Below, in pieces: positions 35,276-50,123 of a DNA stretch of 64,000 nt. The stretch lies in the NCBI RefSeq assembly GCF_001202025.1, contig NZ_LGHS01000076.1, positions 124,001-188,000 on the forward strand, read 5' to 3'. Below the pieces are notes generated by a model. That model made no database searches and had not been told where the DNA came from. It was given only the letters and a program-made list of their open reading frames with translations. The number at the start of each line of letters is the position of its first letter. Within the stretch, counting starts at the first letter, position 1. The position numbers and the translations under genes are program-made. The DNA is from Pseudorhodobacter aquimaris (GTDB taxonomy: Bacteria; Pseudomonadota; Alphaproteobacteria; Rhodobacterales; Rhodobacteraceae).

Positions 35276-35385
35276 GCCTGTGATCCTTATCAGTGTTTTT
35301 AGCGCGAGGATGAGACACGTGATTAAAGCAGGTTTTACGCCCGCTTCCAATACACGTATTCGCGCCCGCCGCGCGGTTTCGCCTA

Positions 35386-35565
35386 TGATGTCAGGGCAGG
35401 TTTCCTGGCTTCGTGGTTCATCGCGCGGCTGCCTTCCCAAGGATCGCCCCTCAGTGACATATTAGCCTTGCGAACCACTTACAGTTGCGGGGGCAGCGCT
35501 GGATTAGGTTATCTGACGACACTAGCTTCCCTTTTTCACCCCGAGTCGCCCCGAGGACCATGACA
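35386..35565 (-). promoter_or_regulatory. cobalamin (B12) riboswitch upstream of nrdHIEF
   Basis: Read on the minus strand, the leader contains the conserved elements in order: GGGGTGAAAAAGGGAAGC at about 35545, GCTGCCCCCGCAACTGT (35504-35488), the P5-P6 region with GTCACTGAGG and GGGAAGGC, and the B12 box AGCCAGGAAACCTGCC (35410-35395). About 110 bases separate it from the nrdH ATG. B12 riboswitches normally turn genes off when adenosylcobalamin is plentiful. Placed before a B12-independent reductase, this one implies that a B12-dependent class II enzyme is used instead under those conditions. Confidence 0.95.
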
Positions 35566-35596
35566 CCAGCAGTGGTGGATGAGAGGGGGCTCTTTG

Positions 35597-44975: not shown

Positions 44976-47348
44976 ATGAACGGATTTGATGAAAATGATG
45001 CCTTTGAGGCTGCCGCCGCACCCGCCCCGCAGGTGCCCTTGTCGCAGCGTGCAATGGCCGCGCGGCCGGCACCCTATCTGGACGACCTCAACCCCGCGCA
45101 GCGCGCCGCGGTAGAGGCGCTGGACGGCCCTGTATTGATGCTTGCGGGGGCGGGAACGGGCAAAACCAAGGCGCTGACCACGCGGATTGTGCATCTGCTC
45201 AATACCGCCCGTGCCAACCCGCATGAGATTTTGGCCGTGACCTTTACCAATAAGGCCGCGCGCGAGATGAAGCTGCGCGTGGGGCGGCTGATGGGGCAAT
45301 CGGCGGATGGCATGAAGTGGATGGGGACGTTCCATTCCATCTCGGTCAAAATCCTGCGCCGTCATGCCGAATTGGTCGGGCTGAAATCAAATTTCACGAT
45401 TCTGGATAGTGATGACCAGCTCAGGCTTTTGAAACAGCTTATCGCCGCCAGCAATATTGACGAAAAACGCTGGCCTGCCCGCATGTTGGCCGGCGTGATC
45501 GACAGCTGGAAAAACCGGGCCTGGACGCCGCAAAAGGTGCCGTCTTCCGAGGCATCGGCCTATAACGGCCGCGGGACCGAGCTTTATGAACAATATCAGG
45601 ACCGTTTGCGCAGCCTGAACGCCACAGACTTCGGTGACTTGCTCTTGCACACCGTTACCCTGTTTCAGGCGCATCCCGATATTCTGGCGCAGTATCAGCG
45701 CTGGTTCAAATATATCCTCGTGGACGAATATCAGGATACCAACGTCGCCCAATACCTCTGGCTGCGGCTGTTGGCGCAAGCGCATAAAAATATCTGCTGT
45801 GTGGGCGATGACGATCAGTCGATCTATGGCTGGCGCGGGGCCGAGGTCGGCAATATCCTGCGGTTTGAAACCGATTTCCCCGGCGCCGAGGTGGTCCGGC
45901 TGGAACAAAACTACCGCTCCACCCCGCATATTCTTGCGGCGGCCTCGGCGGTGATTGCGGCCAACTCGGGGCGCTTGGGCAAGACCCTATGGACCGACCG
46001 CGAAGAGGGCGAGAAGCTGCGGCTGATCGGTCATTGGGACGGTGAGGAAGAAGCCCGCTGGATCGGGGATGAGGTCGAAAGCCTGCAACGTGGCACCCGG
46101 GCAATGGAGGCGCAGAGCCTTGATAATATGGCTATTCTGGTCCGCGCCTCGCATCAGATGCGCGCGTTTGAGGATCGTTTCCTGACCATTGGCCTGCCGT
46201 ACCGCGTGATCGGCGGTCCGCGATTCTATGAGCGGTTGGAGATTCGCGACGCGATGGCCTATTTCCGCCTGGCTGTTTCCCCCGAGGATGATCTGGCCTT
46301 TGAGCGGGTAATCAATACCCCCAAACGCGGGCTGGGCGATAAGGCGCGCCAAAACATCCAACGGCGCGCGCGCGAAGGCGGGTTGACGCTTTTGGAGGGC
46401 GCACGGGCCTTGTTGGCCGAGGGCGGGATTTCCGGCAAAGGGGCAGGGCAGCTGCGCGCCTTTACTGATGGGATGGCGCGTTGGCATGACGCCACGCTGG
46501 TGCCCAATTACGACCATATCGAGCTGGCCGAGGCGATGCTGGAGGAATCCGGCTATACCGCCATGTGGCAAAACGACAAATCCCCCGAGGCGCCGGGCCG
46601 GTTGGAGAACCTCAAAGAGCTGGTCAAGGCGCTGGATAACTTTGAGAACCTGCAAGGGTTTTTGGAACACGTCAGCCTGATCATGGAAAATGAGACCGAA
46701 GAGCAGGGTGCCAAGGTCAGCATCATGACGCTCCACGCCGCCAAAGGTCTGGAATTTCCGGTGGTGTTCTTGCCGGGGTGGGAGGATGGTCTGTTCCCCT
46801 CACAGCGCAGCATGGACGAAAGCGGTGCCAAAGGCTTGGAAGAAGAGCGCCGTCTGGCCTATGTCGGCATCACCCGGGCCGAGGCGCTTTGCACCATTTC
46901 TTTTGCCGCCAATCGCAGAGTTTACGGGCAATGGCAAAGCCAGCTTCCCAGCCGGTTCATTGATGAGCTTCCGGCGGATCATGTCGACATCCTCACCCCG
47001 CCCGGCCTTTATGGCGGGGGGTACGGTGCCGCGGCCCCTGCGCCCAAGATCGAGGAACGTGCGGCCAGTGCCGATGTCTATAACTCTCCGGGGTGGCGGC
47101 GGATGCAGGAACGCTCTGCGCAACGCGGCACCAGCCAGCCCCGAGAGGCGAAAGGCAGCGTGATTGACCTTGCGGCGGTATCGTCCTTTACCCAAGGTGA
47201 CCGCGTGTTCCACCAGAAATTCGGCTATGGCACCATTAAGGCGATCGAGGGTGACAAGCTGAGCGTGGCCTTTGACAAGGCCGGAAACAAGCATGTCGTC
47301 GCGGGATTCGTCGTGGCTGCTGATCAGGCGCATGACCTGCCGTTTTAA
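44976..47348 (+). CDS. uvrD: DNA helicase II, UvrD/PcrA family
   Basis: The 790-residue SF1A helicase acts in nucleotide-excision and mismatch repair. It has the Q motif LNPAQRAAVEAL, Walker A LAGAGTGKTKALT, motif Ia VTFTNKAAREM, motif II ILVDEYQDTN, motif III VGDDDQSIYGWRGA, motif IV EQNYRST, motif V IMTLHAAKGLEFPVVFLPG and motif VI RRLAYVGITRA. The C-terminal Tudor-like part (about 735-785: RVFHQKFGYGTIKAIEGDKL) binds RNA polymerase in relatives. An SOS box precedes it. Confidence 0.96.
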   Translation: MNGFDENDAFEAAAAPAPQVPLSQRAMAARPAPYLDDLNPAQRAAVEALDGPVLMLAGAGTGKTKALTTRIVHLLNTARANPHEILAVTFTNKAAREMKLRVGRLMGQSADGMKWMGTFHSISVKILRRHAELVGLKSNFTILDSDDQLRLLKQLIAASNIDEKRWPARMLAGVIDSWKNRAWTPQKVPSSEASAYNGRGTELYEQYQDRLRSLNATDFGDLLLHTVTLFQAHPDILAQYQRWFKYILVDEYQDTNVAQYLWLRLLAQAHKNICCVGDDDQSIYGWRGAEVGNILRFETDFPGAEVVRLEQNYRSTPHILAAASAVIAANSGRLGKTLWTDREEGEKLRLIGHWDGEEEARWIGDEVESLQRGTRAMEAQSLDNMAILVRASHQMRAFEDRFLTIGLPYRVIGGPRFYERLEIRDAMAYFRLAVSPEDDLAFERVINTPKRGLGDKARQNIQRRAREGGLTLLEGARALLAEGGISGKGAGQLRAFTDGMARWHDATLVPNYDHIELAEAMLEESGYTAMWQNDKSPEAPGRLENLKELVKALDNFENLQGFLEHVSLIMENETEEQGAKVSIMTLHAAKGLEFPVVFLPGWEDGLFPSQRSMDESGAKGLEEERRLAYVGITRAEALCTISFAANRRVYGQWQSQLPSRFIDELPADHVDILTPPGLYGGGYGAAAPAPKIEERAASADVYNSPGWRRMQERSAQRGTSQPREAKGSVIDLAAVSSFTQGDRVFHQKFGYGTIKAIEGDKLSVAFDKAGNKHVVAGFVVAADQAHDLPF

Positions 47349-47451
47349 GGCATAAGGTTTTTCAAAATCCGAACTGCATTTTGCGCCTGTGAACATGGTT
47401 CATCGGCGTAAAAATGGTGTCCAAGATAAAGTCTGGGAGGGGAGGGAAACA

Positions 47452-47850
47452 GGCGGCGCGCAGGGAGGAGGAGCGCGCCGCCGTTCCATCTTGTCCGTAC
47501 CCTCGAGGGAGGAGGAAGGGACGGACAATGGCAGTAGGGTCATGCAACGCGCGACCCAAAGGTTTCGTAGCGGCCCCCGGGAGGAGGATAGGGACCGCCA
47601 CGCTTACGTCCGGCCAGGGAGGAGGAGAGGCCGGGCATCTGCATCGGGGAGGTCGCATGGACCTACACCCTGAAACTTTGCGCAGCGACCCCCGGGAGGA
47701 GGATAGGGGCCGCTGCATATCCCATCCGGCTCAGGGAGGAGGAGCCGATTGGTATTCATGAAGGCCGAGCCTTCGTATAAGGTCGGCGACACAAGGGAGG
47801 AGGAGTGTCGCCGTTTTCAAACAAGCGCCCGAGGGAGGAGGAGGGCCCTT
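47452..47850 (-). ncRNA. array of eight CcsR/cuckoo-type sRNA hairpins
   Basis: On the minus strand, directly downstream of the DUF1127 gene, TCCTCCTCCC occurs eight times. The cores are at 47463, 47507, 47579, 47617, 47694, 47734, 47795 and 47833. Each sits in the loop of a separate GC-rich hairpin. Examples of arms are 47452-47461/47473-47482 (10 bp), 47491-47498/47521-47528 (8 bp), 47610-47615/47629-47634 (6 bp) and 47784-47792/47805-47813 (9 bp). The arms differ between units while the loop is constant. This matches the CcsR1-4 RNAs of Rhodobacter sphaeroides (CCUCCUCCC loops, processed from the mRNA of the DUF1127 protein CcaF1), but with twice as many units. Confidence 0.88.
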
Positions 47851-47865
47851 GTCCGAATTCTGTTG

Positions 47866-48081
47866 TTACTTCCCGTAGGCTGCCTCAAGGGCGATACGGG
47901 TGATCATGCTGCGGGAGATACCCAGATCATTCAATTCGCGTGTCGACAGACCGCGCATCTCCGACACGGTCTGGTTATAGACGCGGCGGCTGTGCATTGC
48001 TTCTTTGGTGGACTTCACAAGGCTTGTGATCCGGTCCATCAGGCCCAGGTTGCCAGCAGATGTTGTGCTTGTATAAGCCAT
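47866..48081 (-). CDS. ccaF1: DUF1127 small RNA-binding-type protein, CcaF1-like
   Basis: The 71-residue protein starts AYTSTTSAGNLGLMDRITSL and contains the DUF1127 core (about 30-60: RRVYNQTVSEMRGLSTRELN, then DLGISRSMI). In Rhodobacter, CcaF1 is a small RNA-binding protein encoded at the head of the CcsR sRNA transcript. Gene order and strand are the same here. The frame stays open upstream, but ATG 48081 matches the family start. The RpoH-like promoter 56 bases upstream fits heat- and oxidative-stress induction. Confidence 0.85.
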   Translation of the reverse strand: MAYTSTTSAGNLGLMDRITSLVKSTKEAMHSRRVYNQTVSEMRGLSTRELNDLGISRSMITRIALEAAYGK

Positions 48082-48136
48082 TTTTATGTCTCGCTTCTTT
48101 TCTTTCAAAGCGCGTCTTGTTGCGCTGTTGAAACTA

Positions 48137-48164
48137 AGATGGGGCATATGCTGCAATTGCACAA
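48137..48164 (-). promoter_or_regulatory. heat-shock sigma-type promoter of the ccaF1-CcsR unit
   Basis: On the minus strand TTGTGC (48164-48159), a 14-base spacer and CCCCATCT (48144-48137) fit the RpoH pattern; the -10 element matches CCCCATNT exactly. The start would lie near 48130, about 50 bases before the ATG. Confidence 0.5.
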
Positions 48165-48337
48165 CGCCCATTGCTGCATTGCAGCTATGCGTTTTGGGAA
48201 TGGCAGGTTAAGGAATTAACGTAAGGTAAACAAAGGGTAATCCAGCGCCTTTTGGGTTTTATCGGGAAATATAGCAGTGGCCCTTGCCCTTCGTCAGCAA
48301 AGTGACATTCTGCAAGGGAACATTTGGAGTGGATTTT

Positions 48338-49405
48338 ATGGCTTTGGATAAAGAAACGGTACTGGCGGCACTGGACGGCGTGGCTTTGCCCGACGGCGGA
48401 ACGCTGGTTTCGCGGGATCTGATCAGGGCGCTGACGGTCGAGGCGGGCACCGTCCGTTTCGTGATCGAGGCACCAACACCCGAGGAGGCCCGCGCGCTCG
48501 CTCCGGCCCAGACCACGGCCGAGGCTGCGGTGCGGGCGCTGCCGGGGGTGACATCGGTGCAGGCGGTGACAACCGCCCATGGTCCTGCGGCCAATCCGCC
48601 CAGCCTGAAAATCGGCCAGCACCCCAAGCCGCAGCAGGGCGGCCCGGCACCGATAAGCGGGATTGACCGGATTGTAGTGGTTGGTTCGGGCAAGGGAGGG
48701 GTAGGGAAATCCACCGTCTCCTCCAACCTGGCGGTCGCCTTGGCAAAACAGGGTCGGCGTGTGGGGCTATTGGATGCTGATATCTATGGGCCGTCACAGC
48801 CGCGGATGATGGGGGTGTCCAAGCGCCCGGCCTCGCCGGACGGCAAGACGATCATCCCGCTTCAGGCGCATGGTGTGACCGTGATGTCGATCGGCTTGAT
48901 GCTCAAAGAGGATGAGGCGGTGGTCTGGCGCGGCCCGATGATCATGGGGGCGTTGCAGCAGCTGCTCTCGCAGGTGGAATGGGGCAAGCTGGATATTCTG
49001 ATCGTGGATCTGCCGCCGGGCACAGGGGATATCCAGTTGACGTTGTGCCAGCGGACCAAGCTGACGGGCGCGATTGTTGTGTCTACGCCGCAGGATGTGG
49101 CGATGCTGGATGCACGCCGGGCGCTGGATATGTTCGAAAAGCTGAAAACGCCGGTGCTGGGGCTGATCGAAAACATGTCCACCTATATCTGTCCCAATTG
49201 CGGCCATGAAGCGCATTTGTTCGGCCATGGCGGCGTGGCGGCCGAGGCGGCCAAGATCGGTGTACCTTTCCTGGGGGAACTGCCGTTGGAGCTTGATACC
49301 CGCTTGGCCGGGGATGCAGGTACGCCGATTGCCTTGGGGGATGGCCCGGCCGCCAAGGCCTATGCCGCCTTGGCTGCGCGGTTGATTGCAGGCGGTATGG
49401 CCTGA
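48338..49405 (+). CDS. mrp: Mrp/ApbC-type iron-sulfur cluster carrier ATPase
   Basis: The 355-residue P-loop protein carries Fe-S clusters to apo-enzymes. An N-terminal MIP18-like domain (about 1-80) is followed by the deviant Walker A GSGKGGVGKSTVSSNLA, DADIYGPSQPRMMG, DLPPGTGDIQLTL and the cluster-binding pair YICPNCG near the C-terminus. ATG 48338 has GGAG 8 bases upstream. Confidence 0.93.
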   Translation: MALDKETVLAALDGVALPDGGTLVSRDLIRALTVEAGTVRFVIEAPTPEEARALAPAQTTAEAAVRALPGVTSVQAVTTAHGPAANPPSLKIGQHPKPQQGGPAPISGIDRIVVVGSGKGGVGKSTVSSNLAVALAKQGRRVGLLDADIYGPSQPRMMGVSKRPASPDGKTIIPLQAHGVTVMSIGLMLKEDEAVVWRGPMIMGALQQLLSQVEWGKLDILIVDLPPGTGDIQLTLCQRTKLTGAIVVSTPQDVAMLDARRALDMFEKLKTPVLGLIENMSTYICPNCGHEAHLFGHGGVAAEAAKIGVPFLGELPLELDTRLAGDAGTPIALGDGPAAKAYAALAARLIAGGMA

Positions 49406-49838: not shown

Positions 49839-50034
49839 TGGCATTCATTGTTCACGGAAGCAAAGAACGGGCAAAACAAATAGGGGCGATTCAAAAGACT
49901 CCGAATAGGCAGAAAAAGCAGGCTCATACAGGCAACCGCTTTTTTGCTTCCGACGAACAACTGATCCGGCGCGCGAGCGAGCAGACATCCCCCAGGTGGC
50001 GCGCGCAGTCGGTTTCCCCGCAAGCGGGATAGGG

Positions 50035-50070
50035 CGGCGGATTGGGCAGTGGCAGCAGCTCAATCCGCCG
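50035..50070 (+). promoter_or_regulatory. stem-loop in the mraZ leader
   Basis: CGGCGGATTG (50035-50044) pairs perfectly with CAATCCGCCG (50061-50070) around 16 bases. GCGGGA and TCCCGT flank it and can extend the stem. It ends 53 bases before the mraZ start. It could be a terminator-like attenuator or a stability element; no T-run follows. Confidence 0.5.
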
Positions 50071-50123
50071 TTTCCCGTTCAAGGGGCAGTTATTGGGACG
50101 AGGGCGCAAGGGGCAAACAAACC

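Follow-up and report, generated by a model that had tools for sequence, protein, structure and literature searches.

The window, meaning the whole 64,000-nucleotide stretch of DNA analysed here, comes from a 3.8 Mb Rhodobacteraceae genome (G000), and carries on its minus strand a small gene of the CcaF1 type (47866..48081; 71 aa plus stop) whose product, of RNA-binding type, matches DUF1127 above cut-off (PF06568, E 4e-10). Judged by this gene, the closest named loci are five Pseudorhodobacter loci with 66-82% protein identity. A plus-strand ORF at 44976-47348, UvrD/PcrA-like by eye, converges on the operon, and the ORF at 48284-49405, Mrp-like by eye, diverges from it and is followed by mraZ- and rsmH-like ORFs, also recognized by eye. 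Upstream of the mraZ-like ORF we noticed a hairpin-forming stretch (window 50033-50072, by eye), at the place that the UpsM sRNA terminator occupies in R. sphaeroides, and a cobalamin riboswitch lies on the minus strand at window 35378-35577.

The DUF1127 gene stands directly upstream of a hairpin array on the same strand, an arrangement typical of the cuckoo RNA family. The array contains eight exact copies of CCTCCTCCC on the minus strand (lowest bases 47463, 47507, 47579, 47617, 47694, 47734, 47795 and 47833), for an expected mean of 0.63 and a maximum of 3 in 100 shuffles of the 64-kb window. All eight hairpins present CCUCCUCCC, the loop that defines members of the CIN1/cuckoo family. Folding the whole array gave strong hairpins with seven of the eight motifs fully unpaired in the loop, the motif at 47734 having its first C paired, and each of the eight is stable when folded on its own. 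Their stem scores range from 7.5 to 13; shuffled window flanks average 3.95, with 508/4000 scoring at least 6, and nine motif copies elsewhere in the same genome score 1 to 4. The Rfam scan placed no family over the array at gathering score. A sequence-only reading of this DNA had proposed eight same-motif hairpins behind a DUF1127 gene on one strand, which the motif count, the folds and the PF06568 match confirm; it was likewise right to call the locus a CcsR/cuckoo array that follows a ccaF1-like gene.

From low to high coordinate, the motif spacings are 44, 72, 38, 77, 40, 61 and 38. Because they alternate, the eight hairpins resolve into four pairs, with 38/40/38/44 within pairs and 61/77/72 between them. 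Spacing and fold together thus give four two-hairpin units, within the two to four adjacent hairpins per RNA of the CIN1/cuckoo family. All are on the minus strand: unit 1 (47785..47857; hairpins 47816-47857 and 47785-47812; fold z-score -6.1), unit 2 (47682..47752; hairpins 47722-47752 and 47682-47716; z -3.5 for fragment 47676-47762), unit 3 (47566..47638; hairpins 47606-47638 and 47566-47602; z -3.3 for fragment 47564-47640, matched by 1/200 shuffles) and unit 4 (47446..47528; hairpins 47491-47528 and 47446-47487; z -7.2 for fragment 47445-47533). In R. sphaeroides, the available passages describe four CcsRs co-transcribed with ccaF1 (PMC10253847) and, for RSs0680a (CcsR1), two stem-loops with the motif in each (PMC3927594). 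The eight loops of the window therefore follow the same plan, provided that RSs0680a, the one transcript described with two loops, typifies all four CcsRs. The locus had been called an expanded eight-unit array by setting hairpins against sRNAs; counted as pairs it matches R. sphaeroides, and it is an ordinary CIN1/cuckoo locus, one more of a known type, with no expansion.

The number of units does vary among relatives, as had been expected, both in the fetched loci and in a census of 295 Rhodobacteraceae genomes. Among the loci found through their DUF1127 protein (L009-L038), the motif is present in 27/30 and absent in three. The census took one genome per genus, defined a pair as motifs with 22-50 nt between them, and pooled paired and evenly spaced arrays with or without an adjoining DUF1127 gene; at least one motif pair occurs in 217/295 genomes, four or more in 104/295 and more than four in 78/295, while the reversed pattern used as control reached up to 4 in one genome. 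That 78 genomes exceed the four motif pairs of the window also speaks against calling it expanded. In the sister species G006, copies of a 117-bp pair unit continue until the contig ends; a member of another genus (G197) has 26 motifs, some of them in 6.5 tandem copies of a 140-bp triplet (97%); and a third genome (G123, L226) has 12 motifs forming six pairs. Hairpins are about evenly spaced in several genera (e.g., L034, L059), and this, together with the triplets of G197, means that the pair plan is not universal. The G197 array (L224, G197:C1:333800-337600) carries its 26 copies of CCTCCTCCC behind a DUF1127-like ORF; with its three-hairpin 140-bp unit repeated at 97% identity, its amplification is very recent. 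Tandem copying of whole sRNA-sized units, of two or three hairpins, offers a route by which sRNA dose could change quickly between species.

Birth and death of units had also been suggested at this locus. G006 and G197 clearly show birth, through tandem duplication. Death had been read from two "degenerate cores", which are present as letters and have a better explanation than dying loops. In the fold, each of the seven bases of 47646-47652 has a pairing partner, and three contribute to the 3' arm of a short linker hairpin (AGGUC-N5-GACCU, 47650..47664, minus strand), whose pairing is preserved in the nearest relative via G-U. The other core, 47435-47446, belongs to the pyrimidine tail after the last hairpin, most of it falling within the C/T-rich stretch 47427..47445 (minus strand). 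We therefore do not retain the dying-unit reading; paired linker bases and a pyrimidine tail fit better. The array ends in a GC-rich last hairpin plus this C/T tail, which is T-rich in G003, and the last hairpin of unit 4 may double as a terminator stem. A consensus scan for terminators found none on the minus strand, all three terminator-like sites being on the plus strand.

The proposal that the arms diverge while loop and pairing stay was borne out by an arm swap and by covariation. In the window array, the mean stem score is 10.4 for own arms vs. 4.8 with arms from sister hairpins. The same holds for 426 hairpins in 67 arrays, a set that left out repeated arrays and motif clusters with fewer than three motifs: own arms average 9.65 and swapped arms 5.06, and a score of at least 6 is reached by 380/426 own pairings vs. 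867/2898 swapped ones. The 46/426 array hairpins scoring below 6 count against our explanation. In the closest relative (G007), unit 1 is altered in both arms and most of the array is identical. Covariation was assessed on second-of-pair hairpins within the genus, 11 distinct ones drawn from seven genomes, the second hairpins of units 2 and 3 included. Double-sided changes occur at 7/12 base pairs and 99.2% of cells are paired, values each reached by 0/500 shuffles, although the latter share is flattered, since rows were selected for a single loop geometry in which they had been seen to pair. These rows comprise 9/18 distinct extracted rows plus two G008 hairpins with C after the motif; the nine omitted rows are first-of-pair or of other loop geometry, with only 4-8/12 positions pairing in register, and all other hairpins without G after the motif were also omitted. 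Further pair types did not rise above shuffles in this set (105/500 reach the count). The covariation expected from the sequence-only reading was thus found as double-sided changes in one hairpin class, and not as an excess of pair types. Taken together, arm swap and covariation describe stems that vary in sequence yet remain paired, as in the cuckoo family.

Two other accounts of the array have to be set against these data. Eight independent single-hairpin sRNAs, which would make the array genuinely larger than the four-unit one of R. sphaeroides, would accord with the stability of each hairpin alone and with the roughly even hairpin spacing in some genera; however, spacing alternates in the window, G006 duplicates whole pairs, RSs0680a has two stem-loops in the passages available (PMC3927594), and the range extends well beyond the window, with more motif pairs in 78/295 genomes. 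We consider this account improbable. Still less credible, to the point of being nearly dismissed, is that the array is a DNA-level repeat (transposon-borne, REP-like or recombinational) and not RNA. DNA-level tandem duplication does take place in G006 and G197, but the stems carry compensatory changes, the arrays of the fetched Rhodobacteraceae loci share the strand of the DUF1127 match and mostly lie directly behind it, and motif copies elsewhere in the same genome lack pairing.

We thus regard it as very likely that the locus is a CIN1-type operon, consisting of a DUF1127 gene and a 3' UTR with four two-hairpin CcsR/cuckoo sRNAs presenting CCUCCUCCC, and that it is transcribed, processed and directed at targets as in R. 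sphaeroides. The sequence itself, the pairing, the pair organisation, the conservation and the co-occurrence with the DUF1127 gene were all observed here. For transcription, processing and targets we reason by analogy with R. sphaeroides, where ccaF1 and CcsR1-4 share a transcript, driven by an RpoHI/II promoter, that is cut by RNase E, destabilised by PNPase and Hfq-dependent, CcaF1 affects maturation, and the flhR mRNA is a CcsR target (PMC10253847, PMC8625941, PMC7866481, PMC8307010). In rhizobia, the same loops are described as anti-Shine-Dalgarno motifs, and those of NfeR1 have been shown to act redundantly (PMC3927594, PMC7143759). By this analogy, gene and array would form a single transcript from a stress promoter, RNase E would cut it between pairs with the participation of the DUF1127 protein, and the loops would pair with Shine-Dalgarno sequences of target mRNAs, leading to translation block or decay. 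The stems would act as variable scaffolds, and tandem duplication of whole units would let arrays grow and shrink.

Candidate targets were sought in the same genome, where we found 47 sites of the form GGGAGGA-N4..10-ATG and one for the reversed pattern, which is no fair control for Shine-Dalgarno sequences. One full complement of the 9-nt loop, GGGAGGAGG, was seen, as the Shine-Dalgarno sequence of a GAF/Fis-type regulator gene (L197 / L006, G000:C41:7481-7497) adjoined by an aldehyde-dehydrogenase-like ORF (by eye). Homologues of this regulator gene do not keep the full loop complement (best 7/9, L218). We considered whether the regulator could be FlhR, the known CcsR target, and dropped this identity because matches at E 1e-30 occur in only 8/61 genomes and the complement is not kept in homologues.

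Upstream of the operon, an alignment of nine promoters from the genus contains conserved blocks, which would go beyond what a sigma factor alone would explain. One is CCATCTT (48136..48142, minus strand), a putative -10 that may be of RpoH type by its consensus, and whose CCAT-N-TT is conserved across the nine aligned genomes; this element and the TTG of a putative -35 are conserved in the genus, although letters alone cannot assign the sigma factor. A consensus scan found no sigma-70-like match at the conserved promoter block and two weak ones elsewhere on the minus strand (48297-48268 and 48108-48080; 0.7 expected).

The other blocks form a bipartite element. Site 1, CGCATAGCTGCAATG (48177..48191, minus strand), is a VtlR-type box with three mismatches to the published motif; read in reverse complement, the VtlR motif reported in print, CAATGCAGCCATGCA (PMC12595884), lies within its consensus across loci, TGCATRGCNGCATTG. 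Site 2, TTGTGCAATTGCAGCA followed by T (48149..48164, minus strand; an exact site), overlaps the putative -35 (TTG) and holds TGCA-N6-GCAT, the LsrB box described for the NfeR1 promoter (PMC10746234); its consensus is ATTGTGCANNYGCAGCA, and most loci have TGCA-N6-GCAT, the last T being kept in 71% of 42. Among 51 distinct motif-bearing loci, site 1 is present at up to three mismatches in 43 and missing in 8, and 37/51 have it at 1-2 mismatches; in 42/43, site 2, identified by TTGTGCR, begins 27 or 28 nt beyond the point where site 1 begins. This set was drawn from L009-L036, L044-L069 and L076, leaving aside L033, which lacks the motif, the short L056, and repeated blocks; L019, L050 and L062 of the input have fewer than three motifs, and L039-L043, duplicates of genus loci, stand outside it. 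Within L009-L036 alone, 25/27 motif-bearing loci have site 1 at up to three mismatches and the other two have four. The motif-less DUF1127 loci L033, L037 and L038 are at 5-6. Of 31 named loci, 30 were scored (L056 was dropped for its short upstream region), with site 1 at up to two mismatches in 22/30 and up to three in 24/30, the 24 lying at -99 to -148.

Both sites were also counted genome-wide. Exact TGCATRGCDGCATTG occurs at 19 places in 23 Rhodobacteraceae genomes, and at 14 of these a DUF1127 match lies downstream; 14 other genomes together contain two, and the reversed pattern gave 0. Exact TTGTGCANNYGCAGCA occurs at 31 places in the same 23 genomes, 18 of them beside a DUF1127 match; for the remaining 13, the 60 nt upstream contain no site 1, the best candidates there having 6-9 mismatches. 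The window's own genome lacks an exact site 1; it matches TGCATRGCNGCAWTG with at most one mismatch at 11 places, one of them in the window, and with at most two at 212 (reversed pattern 28 at two), so site 1 says little in this genome alone. Outside Rhodobacteraceae, where start codons were guessed, site 1 at up to three mismatches is found in 16/48 loci and lacking in 10/17 motif-bearing ones; loci L070-L118 except L076 entered the promoter-box analysis only in this comparison. Its orientation is opposite in most loci outside Rhodobacteraceae, Brucellaceae and Mesorhizobium included. We also considered the palindrome GCTGCAWTGCAGC as a separate operator and rejected it, as it occurs at two places in the same genome, the other without clear meaning. 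Single site-2 matches lie shortly upstream of five ORFs (L228, L231, L229, L233, L235), by eye a 3-hydroxybutyrate dehydrogenase in each of two genomes, RuvC, a patatin-like protein and a small protein rich in Lys and Ala; the regulator may act on these genes too, or the matches may be due to chance. Site 2 is also found upstream of the second DUF1127 matches of two genomes (G018:C8:77207 and G008:C58:16183).

A regulator that could bind these boxes was searched for with LsrB. As query we used the Sinorhizobium LysR ORF flanked by a TrxB-like ORF on one side and by tandem AbcR-type (suhB family) sRNAs on the other, taken as LsrB because this gene order matches published lsrB/vtlR. One match below E 1e-40 is found in 22/23 Rhodobacteraceae genomes, and at least one in 8/14 others. 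The protein of G000 (G000:C72:136487-137344) is a reciprocal best hit of Sinorhizobium LsrB (E 7.6e-70, next 2.2e-39), has the LysR HTH and substrate domains, and is identical to LsrB at 49/67 positions of the DNA-binding domain and 65/226 of the rest. The 22 Rhodobacteraceae loci have no trxB match within 1.5 kb, and we therefore call the regulator LsrB-like only; trxB stands beside the lsrB-like gene in 6/8 loci from other families. In the LsrB tree, long-branched paralogues are present in both groups and long branches disturb the grouping.

We consider the chances slightly better than even that an LsrB/VtlR-type LysR regulator controls the operon in Rhodobacteraceae through the bipartite element. 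Activation is the most likely mode, either alongside the RpoH promoter described for R. sphaeroides or in its place, and such control would supplement the CIN1-type operon reading without replacing it. It is favoured by the likeness of both sites to published VtlR and LsrB boxes, by site 1 in 43/51 motif-bearing loci with site 2 at fixed distance in 42/43, by 24/30 named loci within three mismatches and 14/19 exact TGCATRGCDGCATTG places upstream of a DUF1127 match, by the 5-6 mismatches of the motif-less loci, by the LsrB-like protein of 22/23 genomes with its reciprocal best hit in G000, and by the report, in the available part of the paper, of VtlR/LsrB in many Alphaproteobacteria (PMC7486931). 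Against it stand the three mismatches of the window site in a genome without an exact site 1, the 8/51 loci lacking site 1 and the 13/31 site 2 places without a DUF1127 match, the absence of site 1 from 10/17 motif-bearing loci outside Rhodobacteraceae and its mostly opposite orientation there, the missing trxB neighbour with a tree unable to settle orthology, and the description of LsrB, in the passages available, as unique to Rhizobiales (PMC11975290).

If this promoter reading is true, the stress sRNAs of Rhodobacter gain a second, possibly redox-linked regulator, and the CcsR literature on Rhodobacter is joined to the VtlR/LsrB literature on rhizobia, two fields that the passages seen do not connect. 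More tentatively, and falling somewhat short of even chances, the DUF1127 protein, the anti-Shine-Dalgarno array and the LsrB/VtlR-type regulator may form one module predating the Rhodobacterales/Rhizobiales split; as the bipartite operator stands almost only before this operon in Rhodobacteraceae, the main job of the regulator there would be array dose, and the array would be a tunable set of ribosome-binding-site blockers. The bipartite element is possibly new: our literature search returned no paper combining CcsR with LysR, and for LsrB and Rhodobacter none of the titles listed dealt with the operon besides the CcaF1/DUF1127 work. The key CIN1 and CcaF1 papers were outside the reach of this search, so the element may already be known. 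The promoter finding is the part of the locus that deserves a bench test.

Among known systems, the Brucella VtlR regulon, as far as the available passages describe it, includes three DUF1127 genes controlled by VtlR, together with AbcR2 (PMC12595884), and shares with the window the VtlR motif CAATGCAGCCATGCA and DUF1127 genes; the box of Rhodobacteraceae is reversed relative to the gene when compared with Brucellaceae loci, and the second site at a fixed distance was seen in Rhodobacteraceae loci. The Sinorhizobium NfeR1 / alpha-r14 sRNAs, in the passages available, have the same loop motif, variable stems and the upstream LsrB box TGCA-N6-GCAT, as in the window; unlike the window array, they are described as a three-hairpin sRNA with a sigma-70 promoter, and those passages give no processing from a DUF1127 mRNA. 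The ccaF1-CcsR1-4 operon of R. sphaeroides (RSP_6037, RSs0680a-d) is likewise described as a 71-aa DUF1127 gene followed by four sRNAs, with two motif stem-loops (stated for RSs0680a) and RpoH-like promoter letters that also occur in the window; control by RpoHI/II, cleavage by RNase E and binding of Hfq are features of that operon which would extend to the window by analogy. The cuckoo RNA/CIN1 family (Reinkensmeier and Giegerich 2015), as other papers summarize it, combines 2-4 hairpins, variable stems, a CCUCCUCCC loop and a short DUF1127 gene; in the testable features so described the window array does not differ from it, and belongs to this family as a member.
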